A stretch of DNA of 64,000 nucleotides from an uncultured Bryobacteraceae bacterium (GTDB lineage: Bacteria; Acidobacteriota; Terriglobia; Bryobacterales; Bryobacteraceae), in the NCBI GenBank assembly GCA_937924525.1, contig CALDSU010000001.1, positions 310,001 to 374,000 of the forward strand, in the 5' to 3' direction. The translations under genes and the position numbers were made by a program. Below the pieces are notes generated by a model. It was not told where the DNA came from, did no database searches, and saw only the letters and a list, made by a program, of their open reading frames with translations. Numbering within the stretch: position 1 is the first letter of the stretch; every line of letters begins with the position of its first letter. Shown here piece after piece: positions 38,485 to 53,362 of this stretch.

Positions 38485-39282
38485 ATGCCTTTCGACTGCC
38501 TGATCGACGTGCACTCGCACCTCGGCCAATCCAGCATGGACACAATGTCCGCCGATGGAGAGCGGCTGTGCCGCCTCTACCACCAGGCCGGAGTCACCCA
38601 CGCGGTGACGTTCTCGATCGAGGCCTGCTACGGCGGCATTGACGCCGGCAACGCCTATACGCTCCAGGAAGTCGCCCGGCACGAGATGTTGAGCATGATG
38701 GCGGTGGCGCATCCGAACCATCTGGCGGCTTCGGCCGCCTGGGTCCGGCAAGCCGCCTCGGAGCCCAAGATTGTCGGGGTCAAGATTCACCCCGCGCTGG
38801 GCGCCTATGACGTGATCTCCCGCGCCATGTTCCGGCTGATGGACGAAGTGATCGCCCCGTCGGGCTTGCCGGTGTTGAGTCACGTGGGCAACGACTCGCC
38901 GAACGTGCCGATCGACCGGTTCCTGCAACTGGCGGCCCGCTTCCCGCAAACGCGGTTTATCGCGGCGCATCTGGGCGTGGGAGTCCTAGGCCTGGCCCAC
39001 GCCGCGGTGGACGCCTGGTCGCGCCAGCCGCTCGACAACGTCTGGTTTGATCTGGGCACGCTGCGGGCGTTCGCGACGGGCGCGGTGGAGACGTTTCTCA
39101 CCCACATCGGGCCGGATCGCCTGTGCTTCGGCACCGATGCGCCCCTGTACGTGCCGGCGCCGTTCGTGCGGCTGCTGGAAGTTCTCCCGGTGACCGAGGC
39201 GGTCCGGCGGAAAATCGCCTATGAGAACGTGCTGCAAGTGATTCCGGCGCTGCGCGGGAGAACGGGCGTCGCAGGGGAATAG
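38485..39282 (+). CDS. Amidohydrolase-2-like TIM-barrel hydrolase
   Basis: 265 residues from MPFDCLIDVHSHLG (an ATG at 38470 is in frame but would overlap a GATACT box at 38472-38477). It has the metal-binding HxH (VHSHLG), later His residues in VGVKIHPALG, LPVLSHVGND and FIAAHLGVGV, and the catalytic Asp in LCFGTDAPL. It belongs to the amidohydrolase/metal-dependent hydrolase superfamily, whose members include lactonases such as 2-pyrone-4,6-dicarboxylate or sugar lactone hydrolases and decarboxylases. It appears to be the first gene of the long plus-strand operon. The next gene begins 5 nt later. Confidence 0.85.
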   Translation: MPFDCLIDVHSHLGQSSMDTMSADGERLCRLYHQAGVTHAVTFSIEACYGGIDAGNAYTLQEVARHEMLSMMAVAHPNHLAASAAWVRQAASEPKIVGVKIHPALGAYDVISRAMFRLMDEVIAPSGLPVLSHVGNDSPNVPIDRFLQLAARFPQTRFIAAHLGVGVLGLAHAAVDAWSRQPLDNVWFDLGTLRAFATGAVETFLTHIGPDRLCFGTDAPLYVPAPFVRLLEVLPVTEAVRRKIAYENVLQVIPALRGRTGVAGE

Positions 39283-39287
39283 GAGAG

Positions 39288-40265
39288 ATGCGCGGACTCA
39301 TCTTGCTGATCGCGATGGGGGCGCCGGCGACGCTGGTTTGGGAAGAACTGCCGCCCATGCCGCGCGCGCAGGGCGGAGCAGCAAGCGCGCTGGCGGGTGA
39401 GCAGTTGATCGCCGCGGGAGGCGCCACGTGGGACGGCGACCAGAAACTCTGGCTGCGGGACGTGCAGATCTTCGACCTGCGCGCGCGCCAGTGGAGGATG
39501 GGGCCCGCGCTGCCGGAACCGCTGGCGTACGGGCCTGCCCTGGCGGTCGCGGGAGGGATGGAAATTTATGGAGGCTCCACGGGCGCGCGCAGTTCCCGCG
39601 CCATTCTCCGGCTGGACGCGGCCGCGGCAGCCTGGACGGCGGTGGGGACCACGCCGCAGGACACCGTGCTGGGGCGCGCCGCGCGGGTAGGCGAGGACGT
39701 CTTCCTGTTCGGCGGATGCGCGGACGCCGCCGACCTGACCACCTGCACCGCGCAAGTCTCCCGGCGGCGGGACGGGCGTTGGGAGAAGGTTTCCGCGTTT
39801 CCCGCCGGCGCGGTGGCGCTGGGCGCATCGGCGGTGGCGGGCGGCAAGATTTACTGGTTCGGCGGCTGCTCGATGCCGGCGGGGGGCGTCCTTGCCAACC
39901 GCGCCGAGGCCTGGGAATTCGACCCGCGCACGTTCGCCTGGAAACGCTTGCGCGACCTGCCGAAGGCCAATCGAGGCCTGGCGGCTGCCGCGGCGGACGA
40001 CCGCCTGATCTATTTATTCGCCGGCTACCACGCTTCCGTGGATGAGGCGCGAGGCAAGGGACCCGAGTTCGGCTTCAGCCGGGACGTGTGGATCTACGAC
40101 GTCGCCGCCCATCAGTATCGCCCCGCCTCGCCGTCGCCCCTGGCGGTCGCCGGCAGCGATTTCTTCCTGCATGGCGACACATTCTACGCGGCGGGCGGCG
40201 AGCACCGGATGCGCGGGCGCACGGCGCGCGCGGTGAGCGCCCGCATGCACAGAACAGGAAAATGA
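39288..40265 (+). CDS. Secreted kelch-repeat propeller (NanM-like architecture)
   Basis: 325 residues with a short signal (MRGLILLIAMGAPA) and AGGAG just upstream. Six kelch blades show the diagnostic double Gly: LIAAGGATW, EIYGGSTG, FLFGGCAD, YWFGGCSMP, YLFAGYHAS and YAAGGEHR. Each is followed by a Trp-bearing strand. E. coli NanM, a periplasmic sialic-acid mutarotase, has the same six-kelch architecture. This is a structural analogy only, since kelch proteins are functionally diverse. The stop overlaps the next start (ATGA). Confidence 0.78.
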   Translation: MRGLILLIAMGAPATLVWEELPPMPRAQGGAASALAGEQLIAAGGATWDGDQKLWLRDVQIFDLRARQWRMGPALPEPLAYGPALAVAGGMEIYGGSTGARSSRAILRLDAAAAAWTAVGTTPQDTVLGRAARVGEDVFLFGGCADAADLTTCTAQVSRRRDGRWEKVSAFPAGAVALGASAVAGGKIYWFGGCSMPAGGVLANRAEAWEFDPRTFAWKRLRDLPKANRGLAAAAADDRLIYLFAGYHASVDEARGKGPEFGFSRDVWIYDVAAHQYRPASPSPLAVAGSDFFLHGDTFYAAGGEHRMRGRTARAVSARMHRTGK

Positions 40266-41251
40266 TTCAAGCCATCATGTACGGCGCGGGCGATCTGCGC
40301 CTGGAAGAACGGCCGCTCGATACGGCCAACCTCGCCCCGGGGCAGGTCTATGTGGAAACCGAAGTGACGGCGCTGTCGACGGGCACCGATTTGGGGAACT
40401 ACCTGGGCCGCTCCACCGATGTGCCGGGCGCGCCGGATTACCCGCGGCCGGTCGGCTACTCGAACGTGGGCGTCGTGCGCAAGACGGCCGAGGACGTCAC
40501 CGCGGTGCGACCGGGGCAGCGGGTGTTCTCGATGAAACCCCACCAGTCGGCGTATATCGCGAATCGGGGCGACCTGCTGGTGCCGGTGCCGGAGGGCGTC
40601 ACGCCCGAAGCCGCGTCGCTCGGGTACCTGACGCAATTGGGTGTGGCGGCGATGCGCCAGGCGCATTATGAAGCCGGCGAGCACGTCGCCGTGGTCGGAT
40701 TGGGCGTGATCGGCTTAGGCACGGTCGCGATGGCGAGGGCGATGGGCGCGCGGGTGACCGCGGTGGCCAACTCGCCCCTGCGCGCGGAGGTCGCCCGGCA
40801 GGTAGGTGCGCACGAAGTGTACCTGTCCGGCGAGCCCCACCCGCCCAGGGACGTGGACTTGGTGATCCTGACCGCGAATCCCTGGGAGGCGTACCTCGCT
40901 GCGGTGGAAATGGTGCGCTACGCCGGGCGGATCAGCGTGCTGGGATTCCCGGGACGCGGCTATCCGCCGCCGGACTTCAATCCGCTGGATCCGAAGTGGT
41001 TCTACGGAAAACAGCTCACGCTGATCGGAGCGGGGTTCTCGCCGCGCGCCGAATGCCCGCCCGGCGAAATCCGCTTCAACCTGCGGCGCAATCTGGAACT
41101 CATCTTCCGGTGCGCGGCCACGGGCGCCGCGCCGCTGGACCCGATCATCAGTCACCGGCTGCCCTGGCGGCGCATGCGGGAGGCGTACGAAATGGCCAAA
41201 GCGCATGCCAAGGAACTGGTGGCCGCGATTTTCGACTGGAGGGAGTCATGA
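40262..41251 (+). CDS. MDR-family dehydrogenase lacking catalytic zinc cysteine
   Basis: 329 residues, ATGA overlap with the kelch gene. It has the GroES-like N-terminal domain and a Rossmann domain with VAVVGLGVIGLGTVAMARAMGA. The position that holds the zinc-binding Cys in alcohol dehydrogenases reads ALSTGTD, and the structural four-Cys lobe is absent. It is therefore a zinc-independent relative, as in several sugar dehydrogenase and quinone-reductase-like groups. HYEAGEHVA and GFPGRGYPPPD are further landmarks. It probably oxidises or reduces a sugar intermediate in partnership with the aldo/keto reductase encoded next, whose ATG overlaps its stop. Confidence 0.82.
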   Translation: MIQAIMYGAGDLRLEERPLDTANLAPGQVYVETEVTALSTGTDLGNYLGRSTDVPGAPDYPRPVGYSNVGVVRKTAEDVTAVRPGQRVFSMKPHQSAYIANRGDLLVPVPEGVTPEAASLGYLTQLGVAAMRQAHYEAGEHVAVVGLGVIGLGTVAMARAMGARVTAVANSPLRAEVARQVGAHEVYLSGEPHPPRDVDLVILTANPWEAYLAAVEMVRYAGRISVLGFPGRGYPPPDFNPLDPKWFYGKQLTLIGAGFSPRAECPPGEIRFNLRRNLELIFRCAATGAAPLDPIISHRLPWRRMREAYEMAKAHAKELVAAIFDWRES

Positions 41252-42186
41252 TACGGCGCATCCTGGGCCGCACCGGCCTGGCGGTTTCGGTGATCTCACT
41301 CGGCACGGTCGAGATCGGGTTGGATTACGGGATTCCGGTGGGGGGATCGCACGGGCGGCCGGAGGAAGCCGAAGCCGCGCGCCTGTTGAACCACGCGCTG
41401 GACATGGGCATTAACTTCCTCGATACGGCCCGCCTGTATGGGGAAGCCGAGGCGATCATCGGACGGGCGCTGAAAACGCGGCGTCAGGAGTATGTGCTGG
41501 CGTCCAAAGCCCCGTCGTTTCATCAGGAGGACCTGACCAGCGCCCAGCGCAAGCAGAAGATCGGGGAGAGCGTGAAGGAGAGCCTGCGGCAGTTGCAGAC
41601 GGACGTCATCGACATCCTCATGATTCATAGCGCGCCGCAGGAAGTGATCGTCCAAGGGGATGCCCTGGAGGCGTTGCAGGCGCTGCGGGAGGAAGGACAC
41701 ATCCGTTTTATCGGGGCCAGCGTTTACGGCGAAGAAGCCGCGCTGGTCGCGATCGCCAACGGCGGTTACGACTGTCTGCAAATCGCTTACAGCGCGCTGG
41801 ACCGGCGGCCCGAGCGCGCGGTGTTGCCGGAGGCGGCCAGACATCACGTCGGCATCGTGGCGCGCTCGGTGGTGCTGAAGGGTGTCTTGACTTATAGGCG
41901 GCGGCACCTCCCGCCGGAATTGCAGCCGCTGGTTGAAGCGGCGGACCGGATTGAGGCGCTGGCGGGGGAAGAGGTGACCAGCCTGCCTGAACTGGCGTAT
42001 CGCTACGCGCTGGCCCAGTCTCCGCCGCACAGCCTGCTGGTCGGCACCGGCAGCATCGAGGAAATGGAGGCGGCGGCTGGTTTTGTGAAGAAAGGGCCCT
42101 TGCCGTCCGGGTTGATGGCGCGCATCCAGGCCCTGCCGGTGGTGGAAGAACGGCTGCTGAATCCGGGCAATTGGCCCGCTCTGTAG
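41248..42186 (+). CDS. Aldo/keto reductase
   Basis: 312 residues; ATGA overlap with the dehydrogenase gene and a GGAGGGAG site before it. The full catalytic tetrad is present: D59 (NFLDTARLYG), Y64, K87 (VLASKAPS) and H127 (LMIHSAP). The C-terminal cofactor segment LLVGTGSIEEMEAA is also normal. NAD(P)H-dependent reduction of a sugar or keto-acid carbonyl is the usual reaction. Relatives act as L-galactose or L-glyceraldehyde-3-phosphate reductases. In this operon it could reduce the product of the MDR enzyme or act on the freed sugar. Confidence 0.9.
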   Translation: MIRRILGRTGLAVSVISLGTVEIGLDYGIPVGGSHGRPEEAEAARLLNHALDMGINFLDTARLYGEAEAIIGRALKTRRQEYVLASKAPSFHQEDLTSAQRKQKIGESVKESLRQLQTDVIDILMIHSAPQEVIVQGDALEALQALREEGHIRFIGASVYGEEAALVAIANGGYDCLQIAYSALDRRPERAVLPEAARHHVGIVARSVVLKGVLTYRRRHLPPELQPLVEAADRIEALAGEEVTSLPELAYRYALAQSPPHSLLVGTGSIEEMEAAAGFVKKGPLPSGLMARIQALPVVEERLLNPGNWPAL

Positions 42187-42191
42187 ATCAG

Positions 42192-43961
42192 ATGATGAGA
42201 GTCCTGGGGGTTCTGATCCTGGCGATCCCGCTGTTTGCGGCAGATGCCGCGCAGCGCGTCAGCGGTTTCGCCTCCGAGGTGTCCTCGCCGTTCGCGGAAC
42301 GGCTGGTGGCGCACGCCGACTTCCGCGGCCGCGCCACCGGTTCGATGACCGCGGCGTGGTGGGCTGCCGGACCGGAAGGCAGGAACTGGGTGGCATGGAA
42401 GACCGCTCCGCCTCCGCGCCGGCAGGATACCGACTTCGTCTTCATCGCCTCGAGCGTGGTGACGCCCGCCGAGTTCAGCCGCGGTCCGCGGGCGCGGCTT
42501 TACGTAAATGAACAGCGGGCGCTGGACTTCGACCTAGGGATCACGCGGGACCGCGTCTGGGAGGAAAACGGCTACCGGTTGCGGTTCGAAGCGCGGCGCG
42601 CCGAATGGCCATACGCCGCGGCGCATCGCCAGTTCGAATTAAACGGCCAGAGCGGACTCTACACGCTCCGGGCGCCCGCCGTGGCCATCCGGCCCGGGGA
42701 ACCGGTCACCTTGAAGGTGCAGATGCTGCCTTTCCCTTTGTGGAGGAATGGCTGGTTCATGGTGAAACACCGCACGGACGCGCTGGCCAGCGAGACCTTG
42801 CCGGCCCTGGCCGAACAGGTTCAGCAGTTGCAGCGGGACGTGGCGCGTCTCCAGCAGGTGGCGCACGTGCTGGCGGCCAACCAATACGCGAACTTGCTCA
42901 GCGACCGGACGTTCGAGCATAGCCTGGTCTACACGAACGGCTTTCGCCATGTGTCCCCGGCAGACATCTTGCGGCTGCGGAACGGCGATCTGCCGCTGAC
43001 CGCGCGGGAAGGCGCCGAGCATGTCTCGCGCGACGGCGACGTCATCCTGTTGCGCTCCCGCGATGGGGGCCGGACGTGGGGCGAGAAACAGGTGATCGCC
43101 GGTGACCCGGACCGGGACGAGCGCGAAGCGTGCGGGGTCGAGTTGCGGGACGGCGCCATCGTGATGGCGGTGTTCTTCAACAACCTCTATCGCGAGGACG
43201 GACACTACGAGGGGGAGTGGTCTCGCAAGATGGCGTTCGCGCGCGACAAGCGTCACTTGGGAACCATGATCCTCACCAGCAAGGACCACGGCCACACCTG
43301 GTCTGCGCCGCGGGAACTGGACACCTCCCGGATGCCCTTCACCGACACCGAGGGACCCGCCGACGCTCCGGTCGAGATGCCGGACCGGCGCCTCGTGATG
43401 CCCCTGATGGCGTACCACGTGCGGGGCGACATGCGGAATCGCGCCGCAGTGCTGGTGGAATCGTCCGACCAGGGGCAGAGCTGGCGGTACCTTTCCACGA
43501 TGGCGGACGACCCGGGCGGCGCGCTGGGCCACTTCATGGAACCCGCGCTGGTGCTGACGCGCAGCGGCCGCCTGATCGCCGCGATGCGGAACCAGGGGCC
43601 CGCGCAAGCGCTGTGGACGACGGTTTCCGACGACGGCGGCCAGACGTGGCGAAAGCCGCAGCCGTCGCCGATGATCGGACATCCGGCCGATCTGATCCAA
43701 CTGGCGGACGGGCGTATCCTGTGCGCCTATGGCGTACGGTCCGGCTACCACGCCGATCCCGGAGGGATCCGGGCGGCGTTTTCTCACGACCATGGAGACA
43801 CGTGGCGGATCGAGGAAGGAGTTCAACTCCGGCGCGACTTCCTGAACCTCGACGTCGGCTACCCGGAATCCTTGCAGCTGGCCGATGGGCGGGTGATGAC
43901 CGTCTATTACTTCAATCTGTTCGGACGGTTCTTTCTCGGCCGGACGGTTTGGAAACCTTAG
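42192..43961 (+). CDS. Secreted two-domain sialidase-fold protein (paralogue A)
   Basis: 589 residues; signal peptide MMRVLGVLILAIPLFAAD. Residues 25-195 form a beta-rich domain (GSMTAAWWAAG, PAEFSRGPRARLYVN, RRAEWPYAAAHRQFELNGQ) that may bind carbohydrate. A short heptad-like helix (LAEQVQQLQRDVARLQQ) follows. The C-terminal 360 residues are a BNR propeller with LRSRDGGRTWGEKQ, TSKDHGHTWSAPRE, ESSDQGQSWRYL, VSDDGGQTWRKPQ and SHDHGDTWRIEE. Arg residues of the DGGRTW boxes recur, but the sialidase arginine triad cannot be assigned from sequence. Paralogue B (45060-46832) matches it throughout, ending with the same DGRVMTVYYFNLFGRFFLG. Confidence 0.8.
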   Translation: MMRVLGVLILAIPLFAADAAQRVSGFASEVSSPFAERLVAHADFRGRATGSMTAAWWAAGPEGRNWVAWKTAPPPRRQDTDFVFIASSVVTPAEFSRGPRARLYVNEQRALDFDLGITRDRVWEENGYRLRFEARRAEWPYAAAHRQFELNGQSGLYTLRAPAVAIRPGEPVTLKVQMLPFPLWRNGWFMVKHRTDALASETLPALAEQVQQLQRDVARLQQVAHVLAANQYANLLSDRTFEHSLVYTNGFRHVSPADILRLRNGDLPLTAREGAEHVSRDGDVILLRSRDGGRTWGEKQVIAGDPDRDEREACGVELRDGAIVMAVFFNNLYREDGHYEGEWSRKMAFARDKRHLGTMILTSKDHGHTWSAPRELDTSRMPFTDTEGPADAPVEMPDRRLVMPLMAYHVRGDMRNRAAVLVESSDQGQSWRYLSTMADDPGGALGHFMEPALVLTRSGRLIAAMRNQGPAQALWTTVSDDGGQTWRKPQPSPMIGHPADLIQLADGRILCAYGVRSGYHADPGGIRAAFSHDHGDTWRIEEGVQLRRDFLNLDVGYPESLQLADGRVMTVYYFNLFGRFFLGRTVWKP

Positions 43962-43965
43962 GAGC

Positions 43966-45030
43966 GTGGTGACCGGCGGTTCCCAGTGGCGGCGCACGTG
44001 GAAGCTGGCGCTGGCGGCCTGTGCCTGCCTGGCGGCGGGGCACGGCCAGCGCCCCGACGCGATGGCGAAGGCGCGGCAGAGCTACGAACTGGCGCGCGCG
44101 GGCAACCTGGAGCAGGCCGTCGTCGTGATGCGGGAGGCGATCGCTCTCGAACCGGAGAACGCCCTGCTGCACTCCGCGTTGGGCGGCATTCTGGCCCGCC
44201 AGGACAAGCCGGAAGAGGCGCGGAGCAGCTTCGCACAGGCGGTCCGGCTGGACCCGACGAACACCGTGTTGCGTTTCCAACTCGCGCGCCTCCAAATGCA
44301 GACCGGCCAATGGGAGCCGGCTTACGAGAACCTGCGGCAAATCGCAACGCAGCAGCCAGGCAATCCGGAGGTGCTCGCGCTGTTGGAGGACGCCGCCTGC
44401 GAACTCGGCGCCGAATGGGCGCGGGCGCGGCGGTTCAAGGCCGGACAGGCGCTCGCCCGGGACGCGGCGCGGAGGTTCCCGGCTTCGGCCCGCGTGCACG
44501 AGATGCTCGGATTGTTTGAAACGCGGAACCAGGAAAATGTGCTGGCGGTGGAGGCGTACCGGAAAGCGCGGGAACTGGCGCCGGATTCGGCGGGGGCCGT
44601 CGCCGGACTGGCGATCGCGCAGGCGGCCGCGGGGATGACGGCGGACGCCGCCGCCACGCTGGAAAGCGCGCTGGGCCAGTTCCCCAAGGACGCGACGCTG
44701 CGCCAAGTCTACGGCGTGTTGATGCTCAAGTGGAGCGAGACCGAACCCGGCCGCCGCGCGCAGGGCATCCAGGCGCTGGAAGCAGCGTTGCAGCTTGACC
44801 CGAACCTCGCGGAGGCGCATTACCAACTGGGAAACGTGGCCCTCGAGGACGGCCGGGCGGAGGAAGCGGCCCGACGCTTCGAAACCGCTCTGCGCTGCGG
44901 CGAACCATCCAGCCGGGTCTGGTTTGCCCTCGCGCGCGCGTACCGGCGGGTGGGGCGGGCCGCGGAGGCGGAAGCCGCCATGGAGAAGTTCCGCGCCCAA
45001 AAAGCGGAAGAGGAGAAAGCCCGGCCCTGA
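43966..45030 (+). CDS. TPR-repeat protein, possible lipoprotein
   Basis: About 354 residues beginning GTG-GTG at 43966 (a GGAG site lies immediately upstream, so the second GTG at 43969 may be used). LALAACACLAAG is a signal with a lipobox-like LAAC. At least six tetratricopeptide repeats are visible: YELARAGNLEQAVVVMREAIALEP, ALGGILARQDKPEEARSSFAQAV, LARLQMQTGQWEPAYENL, AYRKARELAPDSAGAV, ALEAALQLDPNLAEAHYQLG and ALARAYRRVGRAAEAE. It likely serves as an outer-membrane or periplasmic scaffold. It lies between the two paralogous sialidase-fold genes. Confidence 0.82.
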   Translation: MVTGGSQWRRTWKLALAACACLAAGHGQRPDAMAKARQSYELARAGNLEQAVVVMREAIALEPENALLHSALGGILARQDKPEEARSSFAQAVRLDPTNTVLRFQLARLQMQTGQWEPAYENLRQIATQQPGNPEVLALLEDAACELGAEWARARRFKAGQALARDAARRFPASARVHEMLGLFETRNQENVLAVEAYRKARELAPDSAGAVAGLAIAQAAAGMTADAAATLESALGQFPKDATLRQVYGVLMLKWSETEPGRRAQGIQALEAALQLDPNLAEAHYQLGNVALEDGRAEEAARRFETALRCGEPSSRVWFALARAYRRVGRAAEAEAAMEKFRAQKAEEEKARP

Positions 45031-45059
45031 AGACGGCCGGGCGGTGAGGAGGAACCAAC

Positions 45060-46832
45060 ATGCGCGAAGCGGCGATGGGAATTGTTTTGGCCGCAGGCGC
45101 GGCGCTGGCCGCCAGTCCGGCGCAGCGGGTGGAGGGATGGACCGAAACGGTGTTTTCGCCCTCAGCCGGCGGGCGCGCCGCCACGCCCTATGACTATCGT
45201 GGACCGGCCGCCGGGTCTATGACTGCCGCGTGGTGGGCGCCCGGCCAGGCGGCGCGCAACTACGTGAGTTGGAAGACCGCCCCTTGTCCGGCCAAACAGG
45301 ACACCGAAGTCGCCTTCATCGCCGCCAGCGCGGTCACGCCGCCCGAGTTCAGCCGCGGGCCGCAGGCCAGGCTCTCCGTCAACGGCCAGGCCGCGCTCAC
45401 CTTCGACCTGGGTTTGACGCTGGACCGCACATGGCGCGGCAACGGCTTCGAATTGCGCTACCAAGCGCGCCGCGCGGAATGGCCCTGGGCCGCCGCGCAC
45501 CGGCAGTTCGAGCTCAACGGCCAGAGCGGGCGATACTGGCTGCGGGTTCCCGCGAGCGTGGTCACTGCCGGAGAGCCGCTCACGCTCAAAGTCGAGATGC
45601 TGCCCTTTCCGGCCTGGCCCCACGGCTGGTTCATGGTCAAGCACCGTAAGGACGCCTTGGCGGAGACAGCGGAAGCGCTCGGCGGGCAGGTCGAGCAGTT
45701 GCAGCGCGATGTACGGCGGTTGCAGGAACTGGTGCACGTGCTGGCGGCCAATCAGTACCACACCCTGGTGGACTCGCGCGACTACGAGCACCGCATCATC
45801 CACACGGACGGCTGGCGGCACCTGCATCCGGCCGATCTGATCAAGCTGCACAACGGCGATTTGCTGGTCACGGCCCGCGAGGCCGCCGAGCATATCGCCC
45901 GCGACGGGGACGTGATCATGTTGCGTTCGAAGGACGGCGGCAAAACCTGGGGAGGCCGCCAGGTGATCGCCGGCATCAAGGATCTGGACGAGCGCGAGGG
46001 CTGCGGCATCCAACTCCGCGACGGCACCATCCTGATGGGAATCTTCTTCAACGACCTTTACCGCGAGGATGGCGATTACGAGTGGAACTGGCAGAAAGCC
46101 GTCAAGTTCACGCCGGAGAAACGCAGGCTGGGCACCTACATCATTACCTCCCGGGACAACGGCTACACGTGGTCCGCGCCCAGGCATGTGGACACGCGCG
46201 GCATGCCCTTCACCGATCTGGAAGGCCCGGCGGACGCGCCGGTCGAGATGCCCGACGGCAGCGTGCTGATGCCGCTGATGGCGTACAACGTACGCGGAGA
46301 CATGTTCAACAAAGCCGCGGTGCTGCTGAAGACCGCCGATCAGGGAAAGAGTTGGCAATTCGTCTCGTTCATGGCGCAGGATCCCGGCGGGAAACTGGGA
46401 ATGTTCGGCGAGCCGGGCCTGGTGCGCACCCGCAGCGGACGCCTGATCGCCGCGCTGCGCAATGAGGGACCGGAGAACCGCATCTGGACCACCCACTCCG
46501 ACGATGGCGGCAAAAGTTGGACGCCGGTGAAGCCCTCGCCCATGGTGGGTCACCCCGCGGACCTGATGCAACTCGCCGACGGACGCATCCTGTGCACTTA
46601 CGGCACGCGTTCGCGGCGGCACGCCGACCCTGCCGGCATTCGCGCCGCCTTTTCGCCGGACAACGGCGAGACCTGGCAAATCGAACAGGAAGTGCAGATC
46701 CGCCGCGATTTCCTGAACATGGATATCGGCTACCCTGAATCGATGCAACTGGAGGACGGCCGGGTGATGACGGTGTACTACTTCAACCTGTTCGGGCGTT
46801 TCTTCCTGGGACAGACGATCTGGAGGCCGTGA
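45060..46832 (+). CDS. Secreted two-domain sialidase-fold protein (paralogue B)
   Basis: 590 residues with a strong GGAGG site and signal peptide (GIVLAAGAALAASPAQ). It repeats the architecture of paralogue A: N-terminal beta domain (GSMTAAWWAPG, PPEFSRGPQARLSVN, RRAEWPWAAAHRQFELNGQ), short heptad helix (LGGQVEQLQRDVRRLQELVH), and BNR propeller (LRSKDGGKTWGGRQ, TSRDNGYTWSAPRH, KTADQGKSWQFV, HSDDGGKSWTPVK, SPDNGETWQIEQ). By eye the two proteins share well over half their residues, with nearly identical lengths, so this is a duplication within one operon. Export is likely. The substrate is unknown. Confidence 0.8.
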   Translation: MREAAMGIVLAAGAALAASPAQRVEGWTETVFSPSAGGRAATPYDYRGPAAGSMTAAWWAPGQAARNYVSWKTAPCPAKQDTEVAFIAASAVTPPEFSRGPQARLSVNGQAALTFDLGLTLDRTWRGNGFELRYQARRAEWPWAAAHRQFELNGQSGRYWLRVPASVVTAGEPLTLKVEMLPFPAWPHGWFMVKHRKDALAETAEALGGQVEQLQRDVRRLQELVHVLAANQYHTLVDSRDYEHRIIHTDGWRHLHPADLIKLHNGDLLVTAREAAEHIARDGDVIMLRSKDGGKTWGGRQVIAGIKDLDEREGCGIQLRDGTILMGIFFNDLYREDGDYEWNWQKAVKFTPEKRRLGTYIITSRDNGYTWSAPRHVDTRGMPFTDLEGPADAPVEMPDGSVLMPLMAYNVRGDMFNKAAVLLKTADQGKSWQFVSFMAQDPGGKLGMFGEPGLVRTRSGRLIAALRNEGPENRIWTTHSDDGGKSWTPVKPSPMVGHPADLMQLADGRILCTYGTRSRRHADPAGIRAAFSPDNGETWQIEQEVQIRRDFLNMDIGYPESMQLEDGRVMTVYYFNLFGRFFLGQTIWRP

Positions 46833-48490
46833 GCAGAGCGCGGCAAGGCGGAAGGTGGCTGGGGGCCGCGGCGGCTGCCGTGGTCGCCGCGGCGTCCCCG
46901 GCGTGGTTTGCCGATGTCACGCGCGAGGCGGGAATCGTCTGGACGCATTTCAACGGGGAGTCGCCAGACCGGTTCCTGGTGGAATCCACCACCGGGGGGG
47001 TCGCTTTTCTCGACTTCGATCAGGACGGCCGGCTGGACATTTACCTGGTGAACGGCGGCGAAACCCGCCGGGGCCGCAGCCGCACTCCCGTCCGGAACGC
47101 GCTGTACCGCAACCTCGGCGGCGGAAAGTTCGAAGACGTGGCGGCGCGGGCGGGCGTGGACCGCATCCCGTTCTACGGCATGGGCGTCGCCGCGGCCGAC
47201 TACGACAACGACGGCTATCCGGATCTCTACGTCACCGGCTATCCGGCGAGCGCGCTGTTTCACAACAATCGCGACGGGACGTTCACCGACGTCACCGCGA
47301 AGGCGGGAGTCGCCAACCAGGGCGAATGGGGGTCGAGCGCGGCCTGGTTCGATTTCGACCGCGACGGGCGCCTCGACCTGTTTGTGGCCAATTACGCCGA
47401 ATTCTCGTATGACGACGCCCGGCGCTGCGAGTTTGGCGGGCAGCCCACCTACTGCGCCCAGACGGACTACCAGGGCCGTCCGCCGCGTCTCTACCGTAAT
47501 ACGGGCGCCGGGTTCACGGAGGTGTCCAAGCAGGCGGGCATCGCCGGGATGGCCGGGCGCGCGCTCGGCGTGGTGGCCGTCGACGCGGACGACGACGGGT
47601 GGCCGGACCTGTTCGTGGCCCGCGACGCCTCGCCGAATCTGCTGCTGATCAACCAGCGCGACGGCACCTTCGTGGACCGGGCGATGGAGGCCGAGGTCGC
47701 CTACAACATCGATGGCGTGGCCCGCGCGGGGATGGGCGTCGACGCCGGCGACATCGATGGCGACGGGCGGCCGGACTTCGTGGTCACCAATTTCGACACC
47801 GAGTATCACGCCCTCTATCTAAACACCGGCCGCTATCCCTATCGCGAATTCACCGTCGAATCGCGCCTGGCGCTGCACTCTAAGCCTTACGTGGGCTGGG
47901 GCGTGCGCCTGCTGGACTTCGACCTGGACGGGGACCTGGACCTGCTGATTGTGAACGGCCACCTGCACGAAATGATCGAGCGCTCCAATCGCACGGTGCA
48001 ATACCGCGAACGCCCGCTGCTGCTGGCCAACGACGGCAAAGGCGTGTTCTCCGACTTGCGGGAGAGCGCCGGGCCGGTGTTCGACACCGGGTACCTGGCG
48101 CGCGGGCTGGCCGCGGGGGACTTCAACAACGACGGCTTTCCCGACGCGGTCTTCGTCAACCTGAACGCGCCGCCCGTGCTGCTCCGTAACCAGGCCGTCA
48201 AACGCCGCGCCTGGGTGGGCGTCCGCCTGCGGGGTACGGACAGCAATCGCGACGCCATCGGCGCCAAACTCACCGCCACCGCGGCGGACCGCCGGTGGAC
48301 GCGCTGGATCAACGGCGGAGGCAGCTTTCTGGCCTCGCACGATTACCGGGTGGTTTTCGGCCTGGGCGACCTGCCCGACTCCACGCCGGTCGATCTGGAA
48401 ATCCGCTGGCCCAACGGCCGCACCCAGTCCGCCCGCGGGTTGCCCGCCGGGCGGTATCACACCATCACCGAGCCAAGGAGAACAGAATGA
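46829..48490 (+). CDS. Secreted CRTAC1 family protein (FG-GAP/VCBS, ASPIC/UnbV)
   Basis: 553 residues from a GTG overlapping the preceding stop (GTGA); signal segment WLGAAAAAVVAAASPAWFA. Calcium-loop repeats include DFDQDGRLDIY, DYDNDGYPDLY, DFDRDGRLDLF, DADDDGWPDLF, DIDGDGRPDF, DFDLDGDLDLL and DFNNDGFPDAV. The C-terminal ASPIC/UnbV domain has RGTDSNRDAIGAKLT, NGGGSFLASHD and IRWPNGRTQS. It has the same architecture as the protein at 1308-2972 but belongs to a different operon. The stop overlaps the aldolase-family start (ATGA). Confidence 0.88.
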   Translation: MSRARQGGRWLGAAAAAVVAAASPAWFADVTREAGIVWTHFNGESPDRFLVESTTGGVAFLDFDQDGRLDIYLVNGGETRRGRSRTPVRNALYRNLGGGKFEDVAARAGVDRIPFYGMGVAAADYDNDGYPDLYVTGYPASALFHNNRDGTFTDVTAKAGVANQGEWGSSAAWFDFDRDGRLDLFVANYAEFSYDDARRCEFGGQPTYCAQTDYQGRPPRLYRNTGAGFTEVSKQAGIAGMAGRALGVVAVDADDDGWPDLFVARDASPNLLLINQRDGTFVDRAMEAEVAYNIDGVARAGMGVDAGDIDGDGRPDFVVTNFDTEYHALYLNTGRYPYREFTVESRLALHSKPYVGWGVRLLDFDLDGDLDLLIVNGHLHEMIERSNRTVQYRERPLLLANDGKGVFSDLRESAGPVFDTGYLARGLAAGDFNNDGFPDAVFVNLNAPPVLLRNQAVKRRAWVGVRLRGTDSNRDAIGAKLTATAADRRWTRWINGGGSFLASHDYRVVFGLGDLPDSTPVDLEIRWPNGRTQSARGLPAGRYHTITEPRRTE

Positions 48491-49407
48491 GCACCCGCTA
48501 TCCCCAGGCGATTCTCGTGAGCTGCGAGATTCCCTGGGATGAGAACGAAAACCTGCTGGAAGACGTGTTCCGCGAAGAAGTGCGCCACACGCTGCGGAGT
48601 GGGTTCCCCCACCTCTACATCTTCGGAACCGCGGGCGAAGGGTACGCGGTCGACACGCCGCGTTTCCGCCGGATCGTGGAGATCTTCCGCGAGGAAACGC
48701 GCGGGGACGGCATCCACCCGCAGGTGGGCGTCATCGGCCTGTCGACGGCGAACGTGATCGAACGCCTCCGGATCGCCTACGACGCCGGCTTCCGGACGTT
48801 CCAAATCTCCCTGCCCTGCTGGGGCATGCTGAACGACCGGGAAGTGCTGAAGTTTTTCGTGGACGTCTGCGGCGCGTTCCCCGACTGCCGCTTTCTGCAC
48901 TACAACCTGATGCGGGCCAAGCGGCTGCTCTCAGCCGCCGATTACCGCCGCATCATCGACGCCGTGCCGAACCTCTGCGCCACCAAGAATACCGGGACCA
49001 CCGTGTACACGACGCGCGAACTGATGACGGTGGTTCCCGAATTGCAGCACTTCTTTGGCGAGGCGATGTTTCCGTACGCCTGTCTGTACGGCGAGTGCAG
49101 CGTGCTGAGCTCGTTCGGGCCGCTGTTCCCGCGCAAAAGCCGGGAGCTGTTTGAGCTCGGGGTCACTCGCCAGTTCGACAAGCTGTTTCTGTTTCAGCGC
49201 GCGTACCTCGACGCGGTGGAATCCGTAATCGCCCCGCTGCGCCGCCGCGAGATGATCGACGGGGCGTACGACAAGATGCTGGTCAAGCTGGGCGGTTTGG
49301 AAGCCATGACCACCCGCCTGCTATCGCCCTATGAGTCGTTCCCGGACGAGGTCTATCAGGAATGCCGGAGGATCCTGCATGAGCAGTATGCGGACTGGCT
49401 GGGCTAG
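48487..49407 (+). CDS. DapA/NanA-superfamily aldolase (dihydrodipicolinate synthase family)
   Basis: 306 residues; ATGA overlap with the CRTAC1 gene. It is a class I aldolase barrel with the superfamily motif FGTAGEGYAVD (instead of the common GTTGE), the Tyr of the catalytic dyad in LHYNLMRA (Y139), and the Schiff-base Lys K167 in LCATKNTG. Members condense or cleave pyruvate-containing compounds: N-acetylneuraminate, 2-keto-3-deoxy-gluconate, 5-keto-4-deoxyglucarate, dihydrodipicolinate. No dap genes are nearby. Its place among sugar-related genes points to cleavage of a keto-deoxy-sugar acid, possibly of the ulosonate type. It overlaps the next gene by 29 nt. Confidence 0.85.
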   Translation: MSTRYPQAILVSCEIPWDENENLLEDVFREEVRHTLRSGFPHLYIFGTAGEGYAVDTPRFRRIVEIFREETRGDGIHPQVGVIGLSTANVIERLRIAYDAGFRTFQISLPCWGMLNDREVLKFFVDVCGAFPDCRFLHYNLMRAKRLLSAADYRRIIDAVPNLCATKNTGTTVYTTRELMTVVPELQHFFGEAMFPYACLYGECSVLSSFGPLFPRKSRELFELGVTRQFDKLFLFQRAYLDAVESVIAPLRRREMIDGAYDKMLVKLGGLEAMTTRLLSPYESFPDEVYQECRRILHEQYADWLG

Positions 49408-50302
49408 CGCGGCGCTCGCCGGATTGCTGGCGGCGGCGTGGCCCGGCAGCGCGCAACCGCCCGCGGCCTTGGACGCTTTCTGGCGGCGCACGCTCACCCG
49501 CCTGCGGGAGCAACCGCTGGACGCGCGGGTGGAGCCGGTGGCCGACCCGGCGCCGTACCGCACGTTTCGCGTCACCTTCACCAGTCTCGACGGCATCCGC
49601 ATCCGCGCCCGGCTGGGCGTGCCCGTCGGGCATGGGCGGGAGCGGCTGCCGGCGATTGTGGCCGCGCCCGGCTACGGCGGCGTGCAGCACGGGATCATGC
49701 TGGCCGAATGCCAGCGGGGATATCTGGTGTTGCAGGTGGATCCGCGTGGGCAGGGCGAGTCTGGCGAACTGTTTTCGTTGCGGGGCGCCGAGAAGCTCAC
49801 CTGGGGAATCGAGCGGCCGGAGGGGTACTATGATCAGGGCGCCTACGCCGACCTGGTCCGCGGCGTCGACTACCTGGTCACCCGGGAGGACGTTGATCCG
49901 TCCCGGATCGCGGCGGTAGGCGCCAGCCAGGGCGGAGGTCTGGGGTTGGCGCTGGCCGCGCTGGATCCGCGGGTCCGCGCGGTGGTGGGGCACGTGCCGT
50001 TCCTTTGCGATTTCCGGCAGGCCGCGCGCACGCCGGAATCGCTGGTGCGGAAGATCCTGGAGCGCACGGGCGCCGACCCGGAAGCCGCGCAGCGCTCGCC
50101 GGACTGCTTCGATCCGCTCCACCTAGCCGGGCGCATCCGCGCGCCGGCGCTGAGCGGCGCCGGCGGAAAGGACAAGACGTGTCCCCCGGACACCATTCGC
50201 GCAATCTACGATCGGATTCCGGCGCGGAAGAGCTTGTTTCACGATCCTGGCCTCGAGCACCCTCGTCGAGCGAGTTCTACGCGCTCGTCTGGCCGTGGCT
50301 GA
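49379..50302 (+). CDS. Secreted acetyl-xylan-esterase-like hydrolase, C-terminus frameshifted
   Basis: About 307 residues from the ATG at 49379 (MSSMRTGWASAALAGLLAAAW signal). An alpha/beta hydrolase of the AXE1/cephalosporin-C deacetylase type: APGYGGVQHG, VDPRGQGESGE, nucleophile Ser in AVGASQGGGLG, the acid in GAGGKDKTCPPDTI, and the His in HDPGLEHP. After LEHP the frame becomes RRASSTRSSGRG and stops at 50302. The -1 frame gives the expected family ending SSSEFYALVWPWLMRHLLR to about 50322. A 1-nt loss near 50264 explains this. The catalytic triad is upstream of the break, so activity may survive. A sequencing error is possible. Confidence 0.75.
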   Translation: MSSMRTGWASAALAGLLAAAWPGSAQPPAALDAFWRRTLTRLREQPLDARVEPVADPAPYRTFRVTFTSLDGIRIRARLGVPVGHGRERLPAIVAAPGYGGVQHGIMLAECQRGYLVLQVDPRGQGESGELFSLRGAEKLTWGIERPEGYYDQGAYADLVRGVDYLVTREDVDPSRIAAVGASQGGGLGLALAALDPRVRAVVGHVPFLCDFRQAARTPESLVRKILERTGADPEAAQRSPDCFDPLHLAGRIRAPALSGAGGKDKTCPPDTIRAIYDRIPARKSLFHDPGLEHPRRASSTRSSGRG

Positions 50303-50335
50303 TGCGGCATCTCCTACGCTAAAAGCCGCACGCGC

Positions 50336-51562
50336 ATGGAAATCACCCCCGCCGTCGAGCGCCGCAACGGCCGCATCTTTCTGATCAACTATGTGCTGGT
50401 CTACCTGGCCGCGCCGGTGTTGTATATCGGCGTGGTGCAGGCGGCGCTGTGCGACAAGCTGGGCGCGAGCGCGCTGGTGGCCAACCTGCCCGCGTCCACG
50501 TACATGCTGGGCAGTCTGTGCCCGCTGCTGCTGTCGTGGCTGGTGCCGGCGCGGCATTACCGTGCGGTCGTGGTGTGGGCCAACGGGTGCACCGCGGCGT
50601 TGATCGGGGGCGTGTTCCTGACGCTGGCGCTGCCGTGTCCCGCGTGGATGCGGATCGCGGCGCTCCTGGTGCAGGGACTGATCCAGGGATGCTGCGCCGC
50701 GGCGTCGCACGTGTTCATGATTCACTGCCTGCGCGGCGGCACGACGGCGGAGGGCCAGGCGCGCGCGCTCAAGGCGACCTTCGCCATCACGCCGCTGTTC
50801 GCCGTAGCCGGGTCGCTAGGCGCGCAATATGTGTTGGACGCGGGCATCCCCGGCGTGCGCTTCCCTTACGATTTCGCCTTGGTGCACCTGGCCGCCGTGC
50901 CGTGCCTGGCGTTCATCGCCTGGAACAGCAGCCGGTTTCAGTTGGTCCCCGCGCCGGAGGAACTGCGGCAGCCGCTGGGCGGGTTCCTGCTGTCGTGCGG
51001 CCGCGCTCTGGCCGCCGACCGCACCCTGCTGGTGCTCTGGCTGGGTTACTTTTTGTGGTGCTCCACCGCGAACGTGGTCACCAACTTCTCGTTGTACACC
51101 CGGGAGGCCATGGGCCGCGACCCGAACGAGGTCGCCGGCTGGACCATGGCGATCCGCTTCGGCTGTAAAGCGCTGGGCGGGTTCTTGCTGGGCGCCATCG
51201 CGGTGCGCTTCGGGCTGCGCGCCAGCGTCATTACCTCCGTGGTGATGCTGGGGGCGGCTTGCCTGTGGGCCTGGATCGTGCCGGGGCCGGCCTACCTGTT
51301 CACGTTCGGCCTGATCGGCATGGGCGAACTGGGCGGAGCCTACTTCCCCAACTACGTCGCCGCGATCTCGCCGGTGGCCACCAGCGCGCGCAACATCGCG
51401 CTGCTTACCCTGGCGGCGCCCCCGTCCGGCATCGCGCCGGCTTTGCACGGCTGGCTGACCGACCGCTACGGCTTCCCCGCCAGCTTCGCCGCGGGCACGC
51501 TGACCGCGCTTCTCTGCCTGGGGCTTTTCCGCCTCGACCGGCCGCGCCGTCAGAGCGCATAG
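50336..51562 (+). CDS. MFS transporter
   Basis: 408 residues with twelve hydrophobic segments: IFLINYVLVYLAAPVLYIGVV at the start, LGSLCPLLLSWLVPARHYR with its following basic residue in the loop after TM2, and later segments such as SVITSVVMLGAACLWAWIV and LLTLAAPPSGIAPALHGWL. It has a typical two-bundle layout with a long central loop near residues 195-225. Sitting at the end of the operon, it probably imports the sugar or sugar acid handled by the preceding enzymes. The 3' end overlaps the convergent amidohydrolase gene by 13 nt. Confidence 0.85.
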   Translation: MEITPAVERRNGRIFLINYVLVYLAAPVLYIGVVQAALCDKLGASALVANLPASTYMLGSLCPLLLSWLVPARHYRAVVVWANGCTAALIGGVFLTLALPCPAWMRIAALLVQGLIQGCCAAASHVFMIHCLRGGTTAEGQARALKATFAITPLFAVAGSLGAQYVLDAGIPGVRFPYDFALVHLAAVPCLAFIAWNSSRFQLVPAPEELRQPLGGFLLSCGRALAADRTLLVLWLGYFLWCSTANVVTNFSLYTREAMGRDPNEVAGWTMAIRFGCKALGGFLLGAIAVRFGLRASVITSVVMLGAACLWAWIVPGPAYLFTFGLIGMGELGGAYFPNYVAAISPVATSARNIALLTLAAPPSGIAPALHGWLTDRYGFPASFAAGTLTALLCLGLFRLDRPRRQSA

Positions 51563-52548
51563 AGTTCGCGCGCGTTCGCAAAGAAGATCTGTTCGATGTC
51601 GCGATCCTTGAGTTGCAGGCTCCAACAGGCCAGTTTGAGCGTCCGCAGGGACTCGATGCCGATCAGGGTGGGGAGGACGGCGGCGTAGCCGGCTTCGAAC
51701 TTCGTGTTGTCCGCCGACAGCCACAGGAACGAGTCGCCCACCGCGACGCAGCGCCCGCGCAGGTGGGACACGGGGAAGTCCGAGCCGTACATCAGCCGGT
51801 CCGCGCCCAAGGTGCGGATGATGGCTTCGTAGGCGCCGGCGTCGGTCACGGCGCTGGAATCGCACCACACATTGCGCAGGCCGCGGAGCGCGCCAATTCC
51901 CTCGAGGGTGTGGTGTGGATTGAAGCCCCGCGCGCCGTGCGCCAGAATCCACTTCATGTTCGGGTAGCGCTCGGCCCAGACGCGGATCACCTGCTGGTTT
52001 TCCGGGTCCGCCATCGCCCGCGGCTTCACCATGTGCAGCGTGATGCTCAGCCCTTCCTCGTGGGCCACGCGGACGTGTTCCTCCGGCAGGTATTCGGGAA
52101 TCGAGGCGTAGTACGTGTCGGCCCGCGCCGCGTAGACGTGGTAGCACTTCAGGCCCACAAAGCCCTCGCGCCGCACTGACTCCCGGATGAATTCGGGATC
52201 CATCTCCGGCCGGACCAGCATGTGTCCCCGGGACCGCGGACGGGTCCGGACCTCATCCGCCAGGAACCGGTTGGCGGCGGGGAAGTCCATCGACGGGTTG
52301 GGGAAGCCGAAGAACAGCCCGTCCACTTCACGCCCCGGATGGATTTCGTCCATCCGGCGCAGAAACTCGGCCATGCCGGCGCTCGCCGGGCCACGCTGGA
52401 TCCAGGCCGGCGGACCGGCGGCGAACTGCGACAGTTCATACAGGTGCGCGTGCGCATCGAATAGGCGCGGGGGCACGAACGCATCGAGTTCGCGGGCGAA
52501 CAGTTCGCGGTCCGCATCCAGCACCTGCCAGTCAGTAGGAGGAGGCAT
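51550..52548 (-). CDS. Amidohydrolase-2 family protein
   Basis: 332 residues from the ATG at 52548. Metal-binding text is LFDAHAHLYEL (HxH), VGLKCYHVYA, ITLHMVKPR, ILAHGARGF and the Asp in LMYGSDFPVSHLRG. It is of the amidohydrolase-2 group (decarboxylases and lactonases such as 2-amino-3-carboxymuconate semialdehyde decarboxylase-like). The N-terminal extension to 52617 has no support. It is the last gene of the minus-strand unit with IclR, SDR and FadR-type regulator. The gap to the IclR stop is 10 nt. Its role is likely hydrolysis of a sugar-acid lactone or aromatic intermediate. Confidence 0.85.
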   Translation of the reverse strand: MPPPTDWQVLDADRELFARELDAFVPPRLFDAHAHLYELSQFAAGPPAWIQRGPASAGMAEFLRRMDEIHPGREVDGLFFGFPNPSMDFPAANRFLADEVRTRPRSRGHMLVRPEMDPEFIRESVRREGFVGLKCYHVYAARADTYYASIPEYLPEEHVRVAHEEGLSITLHMVKPRAMADPENQQVIRVWAERYPNMKWILAHGARGFNPHHTLEGIGALRGLRNVWCDSSAVTDAGAYEAIIRTLGADRLMYGSDFPVSHLRGRCVAVGDSFLWLSADNTKFEAGYAAVLPTLIGIESLRTLKLACWSLQLKDRDIEQIFFANARELYAL

Positions 52549-52558
52549 GGAAAGAGCC

Positions 52559-53362
52559 TTAAGCGGTGTAGCGTAATTTTCCGGCGTCCTGCTCGGCGGC
52601 GCCCAGCGCTTCGCCAATCAGCGAGGCCGTTTGCCGGAGGGCGGCCGCCAATTCGGTCACATTGTGCGAAGTGATCTCGGCGGTGGTTCCCGCCAGGCTC
52701 AGAGCCGCGACCGGCCGCCGGTCGGCGCCCAGCATGGCGACGCCGACGCAACGCGAGCCCAGCTCCTCTTCCTCGTCGTCGAGCGCATAGCCCATCGCCA
52801 CCACCCGGTGCACTTCCTCCTTGAGCCGGCGCTGCGAGTGAATGGTGTTCTCGTTGTGCCGCATCAGCCCGTGATCCCGCACGATCCGCTGCACCAAGGT
52901 GTCCGGCAAGTGGGCGATCAGCGCCTTGCCGAGCGCCGTGCAGTGCACGTCCATCCGCCGGCCGACCCAGGTGGTGACGCGGCGCTCGTGCAGCGGTTCG
53001 CACTTGGCGATGACGATCGCCTGCCCCTGATCCAAAATGCCCAGGTGCGCGGTCAACTGCGTGCGGGTGACCAGATCCTGCAAAAACGGCCCCGCCAATT
53101 GGCGCAGATGCAGCCGGCCTAGCGCGTGGTTCGCCAAGGAGAGCAGCTTGGTGCCGAACAGGTAGCGGCTGGTGCGCTCGTTCCGGCAGATATAACCGCG
53201 GCGCTCCAGGGTCACCAGCAGGTAATGCACCGAACTGCGAGGCAGTTGCGACTGCTCGACCAACTCCGGCAAGGTCAACCCCGCACGGGACTGGGCCAAC
53301 ATCTCCAGGATGGAGAGCGCGCGATCCAAGGCGGGTACCGTCTGTGTCTTGATGGCGGCCAT
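52559..53362 (-). CDS. IclR family transcriptional regulator
   Basis: 267 residues. The N-terminal winged helix (about 8-70) reads ALSILEMLAQSRAGLTLPEL, QLPRSSVHYLLVTLERRGYI. The effector domain (about 85-255) has LGKALIAHL, GYALDDEEEELGSRCVGV and VAALSLAGTTAEI, typical of IclR proteins that bind aromatic or sugar-acid ligands (KdgR, PcaR, AllR types). It is encoded 33 nt downstream of an SDR gene and 10 nt upstream of an amidohydrolase gene, which it may control together with the convergent long operon. Confidence 0.93.
   Translation of the reverse strand: MAAIKTQTVPALDRALSILEMLAQSRAGLTLPELVEQSQLPRSSVHYLLVTLERRGYICRNERTSRYLFGTKLLSLANHALGRLHLRQLAGPFLQDLVTRTQLTAHLGILDQGQAIVIAKCEPLHERRVTTWVGRRMDVHCTALGKALIAHLPDTLVQRIVRDHGLMRHNENTIHSQRRLKEEVHRVVAMGYALDDEEEELGSRCVGVAMLGADRRPVAALSLAGTTAEITSHNVTELAAALRQTASLIGEALGAAEQDAGKLRYTA

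Follow-up and report, generated by a model that had tools for sequence, protein, structure and literature searches.

The window analyzed here, a 64,000-nucleotide stretch of the genome of an uncultured Bryobacteraceae bacterium (contig CALDSU010000001.1, positions 310,001 to 374,000), carries a block of eleven plus-strand genes at 38485-51562, among them the gene of a class I aldolase. We found this block to be a functional unit that is not closed: the flanking genes siaU, amH2, and SDRa, encoding a sialidase-fold protein, an amidohydrolase, and a short-chain dehydrogenase (SDR), belong to it, and the flanking regulators probably do so as well. In our estimate, the chances are about even that the block encodes the larger part of a non-phosphorylative pathway for the catabolism of a sugar or sugar acid. 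The general interpretation as a sugar-acid unit is supported because its neighborhoods recur across phyla, and further by a control and by phylogenetic profiles.

According to Pfam, the genes of the block encode, in this order, Amidohydro_2, kelch, MDR, aldo/keto reductase, BNR_2, TPR, BNR_2, FG-GAP/UnbV_ASPIC, DHDPS, AXE1, and MFS proteins (Table 1; the two BNR_2 proteins are termed sia1 and sia2). Open reading frames (ORFs) and Pfam together bear out the number, strand, order, and families given by a preceding sequence-only reading of the window, and inspection by eye agrees with it that the MDR dehydrogenase is zinc-less. It had also reported many 4-nt overlaps, and exact ones were found at four junctions (kelch/MDR, MDR/AKR, sia2/CRTAC1, and CRTAC1/aldolase). 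The aldolase and esterase genes overlap by 20 nt with the chosen esterase start, and the remaining gaps measure 4 to 33 nt, 33 nt being the largest in the block. Promoter-like sites (1 compared to 1.3 in shuffled sequences) and terminator-like sites (12 compared to 11.1) occur in the block at chance level and are thus uninformative on a single transcript. By eye, the N-termini of kelch, sia1, sia2, TPR, CRTAC1, and the esterase resemble signal peptides, which does not apply to the amidohydrolase amH, MDR, AKR, and the aldolase. The limits drawn by the sequence-only reading, which coincide with the eleven genes, turned out to be too narrow: siaU lies upstream, and amH2, SDRa, genes of an IclR and a GntR regulator, and a GFO/IDH/MocA oxidoreductase gene (GFO) lie downstream, with siaU, amH2, SDR, and GFO genes recurring beside the aldolase elsewhere.

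A pattern scan of one genome per species (84,980 species) yielded 443 candidate stretches, of which 290 encode an aldolase relative. We retained the best 80 of these 290 together with at most 10 kb of flanking sequence per side and clustered the flanking ORFs at an identity of at least 38%; several of the 80 loci are close relatives and hence not all independent. Judging by record titles, the loci stem from Acidobacteria, Chloroflexi, Poribacteria, Planctomycetes, Gemmatimonas, Gemmatimonadaceae, Latescibacterota, Handelsmanbacteria, Trueperaceae, and Opitutaceae; without exception, the 80 aldolase records are metagenome-assembled or otherwise uncultured. Every partner family of the block recurs near the aldolase in at least three other loci, namely amH (3), kelch (10), MDR (4), AKR (15), the sia1/sia2 family (3), TPR (8), CRTAC1 (9), the esterase (3), and MFS (5). 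Among the flanking genes, amH2 is the commonest partner overall (23 loci), followed by siaU (15 loci, 46-55% identical), SDRa (15), and GFO (3). Loci with such partners next to an aldolase orthologue include ones from Acidobacteria, Chloroflexi, and Trueperaceae. As a separate observation, nine Anaerolineae loci (L095, L096, L100-L102, L104, and L106-L108) share a near-fixed string, AT3-(siaU)-amH2-SDR-DUF455-aldolase, which mostly faces HpcH-SDR-GFO, in most cases followed by GntR and an ABC importer.

For comparison with a control, we used stretches of at most 20 kb, defined a match as 40% identity and 65% length, and took 40 further stretches from eight of the genomes that supplied the aldolase loci. 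At least one partner from the window was found in 11 of the 13 aldolase loci of relatives, but in only one of the 40 control stretches (Fisher p = 1.2e-8); at least two were found in 9 of these loci and in none of the control stretches. The lone control match was a GFO gene, and without GFO the comparison reads 10 of 13 versus 0 of 40. A control on 13 flanks around other DHDPS genes of the own genome, none of them with a match, was not relied on, as it is biased by the orthologues sitting in the window itself. In relatives, the partners tend to form two sets. In the first, kelch-TPR-CRTAC1 accompany the aldolase, and an MR dehydratase and a 2-hydroxyacid dehydrogenase often come next, sometimes also an esterase; the second comprises amH-AKR-aldolase-MFS facing amH2. 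Both sets stand in a single run in the window, and two of the 13 relatives mix them in part (G082, with MDR plus TPR, CRTAC1, sialidase-fold protein, and esterase; G124, with amH2 plus TPR and CRTAC1). The comparison of gene order suggested by the sequence-only reading thus had a divided outcome: order is shuffled among relatives and parts are unlinked, which speaks against a unit, whereas gene content stays together. It is highly improbable that the genes are unrelated neighbors which merely share a strand. Poor conservation of gene order, the separation of the kelch-TPR-CRTAC1 set from amH, AKR, and MFS, and two of the 13 aldolase loci without any window partner (G084 and G108) would fit such an explanation; the control, the profile statistics, and the overlapping genes contradict it.

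The profile test covered 150 genomes of the order Bryobacterales, including the own genome, with thresholds set per query and p-values that ignore relatedness. An aldolase orthologue was present in 14 genomes including the own one, at 58-70% identity in the other 13. An MR_MLE dehydratase was detected in 11 genomes, all of which encode the aldolase (hypergeometric p = 2.4e-14), and the association holds by genus (6 of 6, p = 1.7e-6). Co-occurrence with the aldolase was further observed for siaU (6 of 6 genomes), amH2 (9 of 12), and AKR (7 of 11). While no MR_MLE dehydratase was found near the block in the window, the genome encodes one on another contig (G000:C2:330956-332164), which is 70% identical to the aldolase-linked enzyme of relatives. 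Its assignment to MR_MLE is taken from that orthologue, whose nearest NCBIfam models, arabinonate, galactonate, and talarate dehydratase, all score below cut-off. Paralogues of the kelch and MFS proteins are encoded a few kb away, the MFS one being 63% identical to its counterpart in the window. Moreover, the dehydratase gene lies immediately 3' of the aldolase gene in L042, L045, L047-L050, L053, and L091. The genome thus contains an acid-sugar dehydratase gene with a link to the unit; the parts list of the sequence-only reading lacked this step in trans as well as the flanking members. Beyond the order, in aldolase-encoding genomes picked by hand, amH2 was found in 20 of 24 and siaU-type proteins in 18 of 24 at E 1e-20, 13 of these at an identity of at least 47% over most of the length.

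Two further observations concern the dehydratase genes of this genome. In L121 (G000:C2:321001-341000, 9917-16364), complex I (NADH dehydrogenase) genes neighbor the dehydratase gene, with the kelch/MFS paralogues just beyond. In L122 (G000:C5:546001-564000, 8622-10843), a second, interrupted copy (C5:554619-555602) is followed by a 2-hydroxyacid dehydrogenase gene.

The aldolase itself is a class I aldolase of the DHDPS/NAL (dihydrodipicolinate synthase/N-acetylneuraminate lyase) superfamily, as evident from its profile, Schiff-base lysine, tyrosine, and fold. K167, which the sequence-only reading had singled out, is invariant together with Y139 in all 62 aligned orthologues, and the AlphaFold model (pLDDT 94.8) shows a DHDPS TIM barrel (TM 0.85 to 5c54). 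Within the superfamily, the aldolases are, on sequence grounds, a distinct clade. The tree places all 62 sequences in one clade (support 90) on a long stem, separate from both NanA and the KDG (2-keto-3-deoxygluconate) aldolases against which the sequence-only reading had proposed to place it. Identity amounts to 15.7% to E. coli NanA, 17% to DapA, and 16% to YagE, and the nearest of eight other DHDPS genes tested from the own genome (L008) reaches 23.8%. Five residues fixed in all 62 aldolases (A49, W112, H138, R146, and D262) are not common to the four E. coli references. With regard to the positions T167, D191, E192, and S208 of E. coli NanA, which we take to contact sialate, T is found at the first in 50 of 62 sequences, E at the D191 place in 61, E at the E192 place in 7, and S at the S208 place in 53. 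Membership in the YagE/YjhH cluster was rejected given the separate clade and the 16% identity, although the enzyme may still have KDG-type activity. The place of R143 relative to the DapA arginine differs between two alignments, and nothing was built on R143.

We propose the following route. The secreted propellers and the esterase would act outside the cytoplasm and free or deacylate the substrate, which the MFS protein could then import. One or more cytosolic dehydrogenases (SDRa, MDR, and AKR) may oxidize it to a lactone, to be opened by amH and/or amH2, roles suggested by family precedents and superfamily matches only. The MR_MLE dehydratase from the other contig would yield a 2-keto-3-deoxy acid, which the aldolase would cleave via a Schiff base at K167 into pyruvate and an aldehyde, and AKR or a 2-hydroxyacid dehydrogenase might finally reduce the aldehyde. 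The scheme of aldose dehydrogenase, lactonase, dehydratase, and aldolase is established according to an excerpt of PMC6336799, and, by analogy, the set of dehydrogenases, amidohydrolases, acid-sugar dehydratase, and pyruvate aldolase matches this non-phosphorylative scheme. L-fucono-lactonase and galactarolactone isomerase are known amidohydrolase-type enzymes acting as lactonase and lactone isomerase, judging by reference titles in PMC6336799 and PMC6353982. Known non-phosphorylative Entner-Doudoroff-type pathways likewise combine these enzyme classes with an importer and a DHDPS-superfamily aldolase; in E. coli yagE-yagF-yagG, a partial example, yagE adjoins a xylonate dehydratase gene and a putative xylonate transporter gene. 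The block differs from them in that an amidohydrolase takes the presumed place of the lactonase, the dehydratase is encoded in trans, the aldolase is as distant from YagE as stated above, and sialidase-fold, kelch, TPR, and CRTAC1 proteins are added.

Several observations weigh against this pathway. The dehydratase is absent at threshold from three of the 14 aldolase genomes of the order and was present in only 8 of 32 hand-picked aldolase genomes beyond it. Genomes lacking the aldolase can likewise carry orthologues of amH2, AKR, and HpcH. The profile of amH2 gave no match in the PDB at 1e-3, which leaves its lactonase role without a solved relative. None of nine enzyme/transporter classes was present in 21 of the 80 loci, a count in which 20 loci are shorter than 12 kb and families were considered only if found in at least three loci. 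A second aldolase family, comprising two HpcH/HpaI subfamilies beside aldolase orthologues, is encoded in all 14 aldolase genomes compared with 15 of the 136 others of the order, and this co-occurrence leaves open which step the aldolase itself performs. The pooling of the two subfamilies was chosen after both results, and the first applies only at an identity of at least 56%; the subfamily c47 alone shows a mild tie, with the aldolase in 7 of its 19 genomes. The own HpcH copy (G000:C1:435465-436238) is followed by MFS and AKR genes. Finally, PLP (pyridoxal phosphate) enzymes were present in 24 and N-acyl/peptide hydrolases in 15 of the 80 loci, which suggests amino groups not required for a plain sugar acid.

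These amino-group enzymes could point to an N-acylated or D-amino-acid-like substrate, in which case the aldolase would be a hydro-lyase or deaminase. Near many aldolase orthologues, we identified class III, class IV, and DegT aminotransferases, a BhcC-like PLP enzyme, a DAO oxidase, DoeB-like and PIG-L deacylases, and M19, M24, and M81 hydrolases. In addition, the IclR regulator of the window is nearest to BhcR, albeit below cut-off. We nonetheless regard this explanation as unlikely: none of these enzyme families occurs among the genes examined at 36763-56187, and sialidase-fold partners, found in 31 of the 80 loci like the amidohydrolases, are commoner than PLP enzymes. Beside a class IV aminotransferase, an AKR-MFS-amH2 arrangement was seen in L148 (G023:C26:12001-30000, 4331-8560), in a genome in which no aldolase orthologue was found.

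One PLP family, termed DSD, combines Ala_racemase_N and D-ser_dehydrat domains. Among the three aldolase genomes of the order that lack the dehydratase, two (G036 and G108) encode a close DSD subfamily, which is missing from G084; in the own genome, the dehydratase and DSD are both present. DSD was rejected as a general marker, as the wide family occurs in 106 of 150 genomes and is uninformative; only three matches reached an identity of at least 57%, all in aldolase genomes. The own DSD copy lies on a contig other than that of the block, and its flanks contain no further partner except one distant SDR. With these domains, DSD is comparable to a step of the oxidative chitin pathway, which proceeds via the deacetylase OngB and the amino-aldonate deaminase OngC to KDG; OngC is described in the consulted part of PMC9537276 as a fold-type III PLP enzyme that converts an amino-aldonate to KDG. 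As far as that part shows, the chitin pathway differs in its KDG kinase route and in its deacetylase family, and the own DSD gene is encoded apart from the block.

A less probable alternative to the proposed route, yet the strongest of those considered, is a widespread but so far overlooked oxidative pathway for ulosonic acids of the Kdo or nonulosonic type, often N-acylated. Here, the sialidase-fold propellers would release the acid and the aldolase would act first, yielding pyruvate and an aldose, which dehydrogenases and amidohydrolase lactonases may convert to an aldonate. For amino sugars, deacylases and PLP enzymes, and for plain sugars, the MR dehydratase, could then form a 2-keto-3-deoxy acid, from which the HpcH aldolase would give a second pyruvate. 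The two pathways thus differ in which keto acid the aldolase cleaves. An ulosonic substrate was kept in consideration because HpcH occurs in all aldolase genomes of the order, because two of the three genomes without MR have the close DSD subfamily, and because the nearest aldolase relative found on named replicons sits in a NanR-TRAP-NAL operon of Sinorhizobium. This relative, a DHDPS-like protein of Sinorhizobium meliloti pSymB, is sister to the clade (support 100) and 23.8% identical to the aldolase; it has GTAGE, T48-A49, W112, K145-R146, and D262, but lacks H138. Among the matches listed from a plasmid collection, the aldolase relatives were solely rhizobial, at about 26% identity, and no siaU relatives were found in that collection. 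In the pSymB operon (L156, CP140955.1, 4442-9843; NanR-TRAP-DHDPS-like-NAL), two lyases stand side by side. The neighboring lyase passes the PRK04147 NAL cut-off (379 vs. 281 bits) but fails that of nanA (262 vs. 382), and the regulator passes the NanR cut-off (311 vs. 260 bits). The TRAP label "SiaP" is an automatic annotation, NCBIfam placing the protein only in the DctP family. Unlike the block, the operon has a TRAP transporter, and no amidohydrolase, propeller, MR dehydratase, or MFS protein is annotated in the 17 kb shown.

Returning to 2-keto-3-deoxy acids, we also considered an oxidative hexuronate/aldarate pathway of the Udh-Gli-Gci-KdgD kind, in which the DHDPS-like enzyme would act on a 2-keto-3-deoxyaldarate. 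Gci belongs to the enolase superfamily and KdgD to the DHDPS superfamily. Such a pathway draws on similar superfamilies, namely a uronate dehydrogenase, an amidohydrolase-type galactarolactone isomerase, a cycloisomerase, and KdgD (PMC6353982, consulted in part), and the invariant R146 near the catalytic tyrosine could offer a binding site for a second carboxylate. However, the aldolase scores only 26 bits against the KdgD model (cut-off 374), and no semialdehyde dehydrogenase appeared among the roughly 40 of 81 neighbor clusters annotated, the others being unchecked. We therefore consider this pathway rather unlikely, although slightly less so than the amino-acid-like substrate.

The AlphaFold model of siaU (pLDDT 90) shows a six-bladed sialidase fold, with the protein of unknown function 5hx0 (Z 35.5) and GH33 sialidases (Z about 32-34) as fold matches, and sia1 and sia2 share the BNR_2 domain with GH33 sialidases. 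In contrast to these, a HMMER alignment of siaU to 1eur places T20 (16 of 16 sequences) at the R-I-P arginine and V281 at the second arginine, and siaU has no signal peptide by eye. Both arginines presumably belong to the active-site triad of sialidases. The invariant R283, two residues past V281, could be a stand-in, as far as the alignment indicates. Furthermore, D43 aligns with the 1eur aspartate that we assume to be the sialidase acid/base. In sia2, aligned to 8gn6, a His takes the place of the R-I-P arginine; its best PDB match is 5hx0 (E 2e-27), followed by the sialidase 8gn6 (E 2e-12). We therefore describe siaU and sia2 as sialidase-like in fold, with sialidase activity being only putative. 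The N-terminal ~200 residues of sia1 (42192-42900) and sia2 (45060-45750) have no Pfam match.

Ordinary N-acetylneuraminate catabolism, with sialidase, NanM, O-acetylesterase, NanA, and permease, was judged very unlikely. Sialidase-fold proteins are present, the kelch protein lies above the NANM cut-off of Pfam, and NAL enzymes are the best solved matches of the aldolase by profile and fold (15-19% identity in the fold search). By contrast, the aldolase remains far below the NCBIfam N-acetylneuraminate lyase cut-offs (30.2 vs. 281 and 24.9 vs. 382 bits), as do the kelch protein for NanM/YjhT (69.7 vs. 416 and 70.1 vs. 256) and the importer for the sialate:H+ symporter (19.8 vs. 604). On the grounds of the cut-offs, the replacement of the R-I-P arginine in siaU and sia2, and the position of the aldolase outside the NanA clade, membership in canonical sialate catabolism was rejected. 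The sequence-only reading had pointed to parallels with this pathway, which proved to be resemblance only, while its unit for the import and aldol cleavage of a sugar acid was supported. A role of SDRa as the orphan enzyme N-acylmannosamine 1-dehydrogenase was without support, its PDB matches at E 1e-40 being only acetoin dehydrogenase and YohF.

All enzyme superfamilies involved are known. Their combination, however, seems uncharacterized in the material searched, as do the aldolase clade and the families of siaU and amH2: no characterized member of these three families was found among the papers and structures searched, and no paper on this cluster in the open-access literature searched, although one may nevertheless have been published. 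Sponge Chloroflexi carry uronate degradation genes and GH33 annotations, with nothing tied to this cluster in the consulted part of PMC6306507. Across phyla, the families of the aldolase, siaU, and amH2 are conserved and associated with one another, and the uncultured origin of all 80 aldolase records may account for the pathway having escaped notice. A name for the substrate would provide several protein families in Acidobacteria, Chloroflexi (including SAR202), and Poribacteria with a function. It would also furnish a concrete case in which the automatic labels "sialidase" and "dihydrodipicolinate synthase" could mislead.

Table 1. Genes of the block and its flanks (positions within the window).
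Feature	Position	Strand	Description	Basis
siaU (BNRu)	37267..38370	-	sialidase-fold six-bladed propeller, ~367 aa, no signal peptide by eye	BNR_2
amH	38485..39282	+	amidohydrolase family 2, putative lactonase	PF04909 72.8 bits
kelch	39288..40265	+	kelch propeller, secreted by N-terminus appearance	PF24996 NANM 70.3 bits, cut-off 45
MDR	40262..41251	+	MDR dehydrogenase, zinc-less by eye	PF00107
AKR	41248..42186	+	aldo/keto reductase	PF00248 156 bits
sia1	42192..43961	+	sialidase-fold domain, secreted by appearance	PF13088 108.5 bits
TPR	43966..45030	+	TPR protein	Pfam
sia2	45060..46832	+	paralogue of sia1	PF13088 101.6 bits
CRTAC1	46829..48490	+	CRTAC1-type FG-GAP/ASPIC-UnbV protein	Pfam
ALD	48487..49407	+	class I aldolase, K167 and Y139	PF00701 43.5 bits, cut-off 22.1
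Esterase	49388..50302	+	AXE1-type esterase	PF05448 145.7 bits, cut-off 21
MFS	50336..51562	+	MFS importer (putative)	PF07690 34 bits, cut-off 33.4
amH2	51550..52548	-	amidohydrolase family 2	PF04909 67 bits
IclR	52559..53362	-	IclR regulator	Pfam; best NCBIfam BhcR 172.6 bits, below cut-off 350
SDRa	53396..54142	-	short-chain dehydrogenase	Pfam
GntR	54144..54779	-	GntR/FCD regulator, start uncertain	Pfam
GFO	54901..56187	-	GFO/IDH/MocA oxidoreductase, weak member	Pfam; sole family matched in random control

Regarding the flanks, siaU is oriented divergently upstream of the block, and amH2, IclR, SDRa, GntR, and GFO/IDH are convergent downstream. Downstream of siaU, a minus-strand ORF of 139 aa (36763-37182) has a signal-like start and no Pfam match. 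The IclR regulator has a 49% identical counterpart in the amH2 locus of the relative G108, and COG3618 is named as an often associated group in an excerpt of an IclR study (PMC8222616). The C-terminus of the AXE1 esterase is out of frame with its orthologues, diverging at 50220-50330, just past the conserved L-E/P-H. As another frame carries an orthologue-like C-terminus, this reflects a late frameshift, which is either real or an assembly error.

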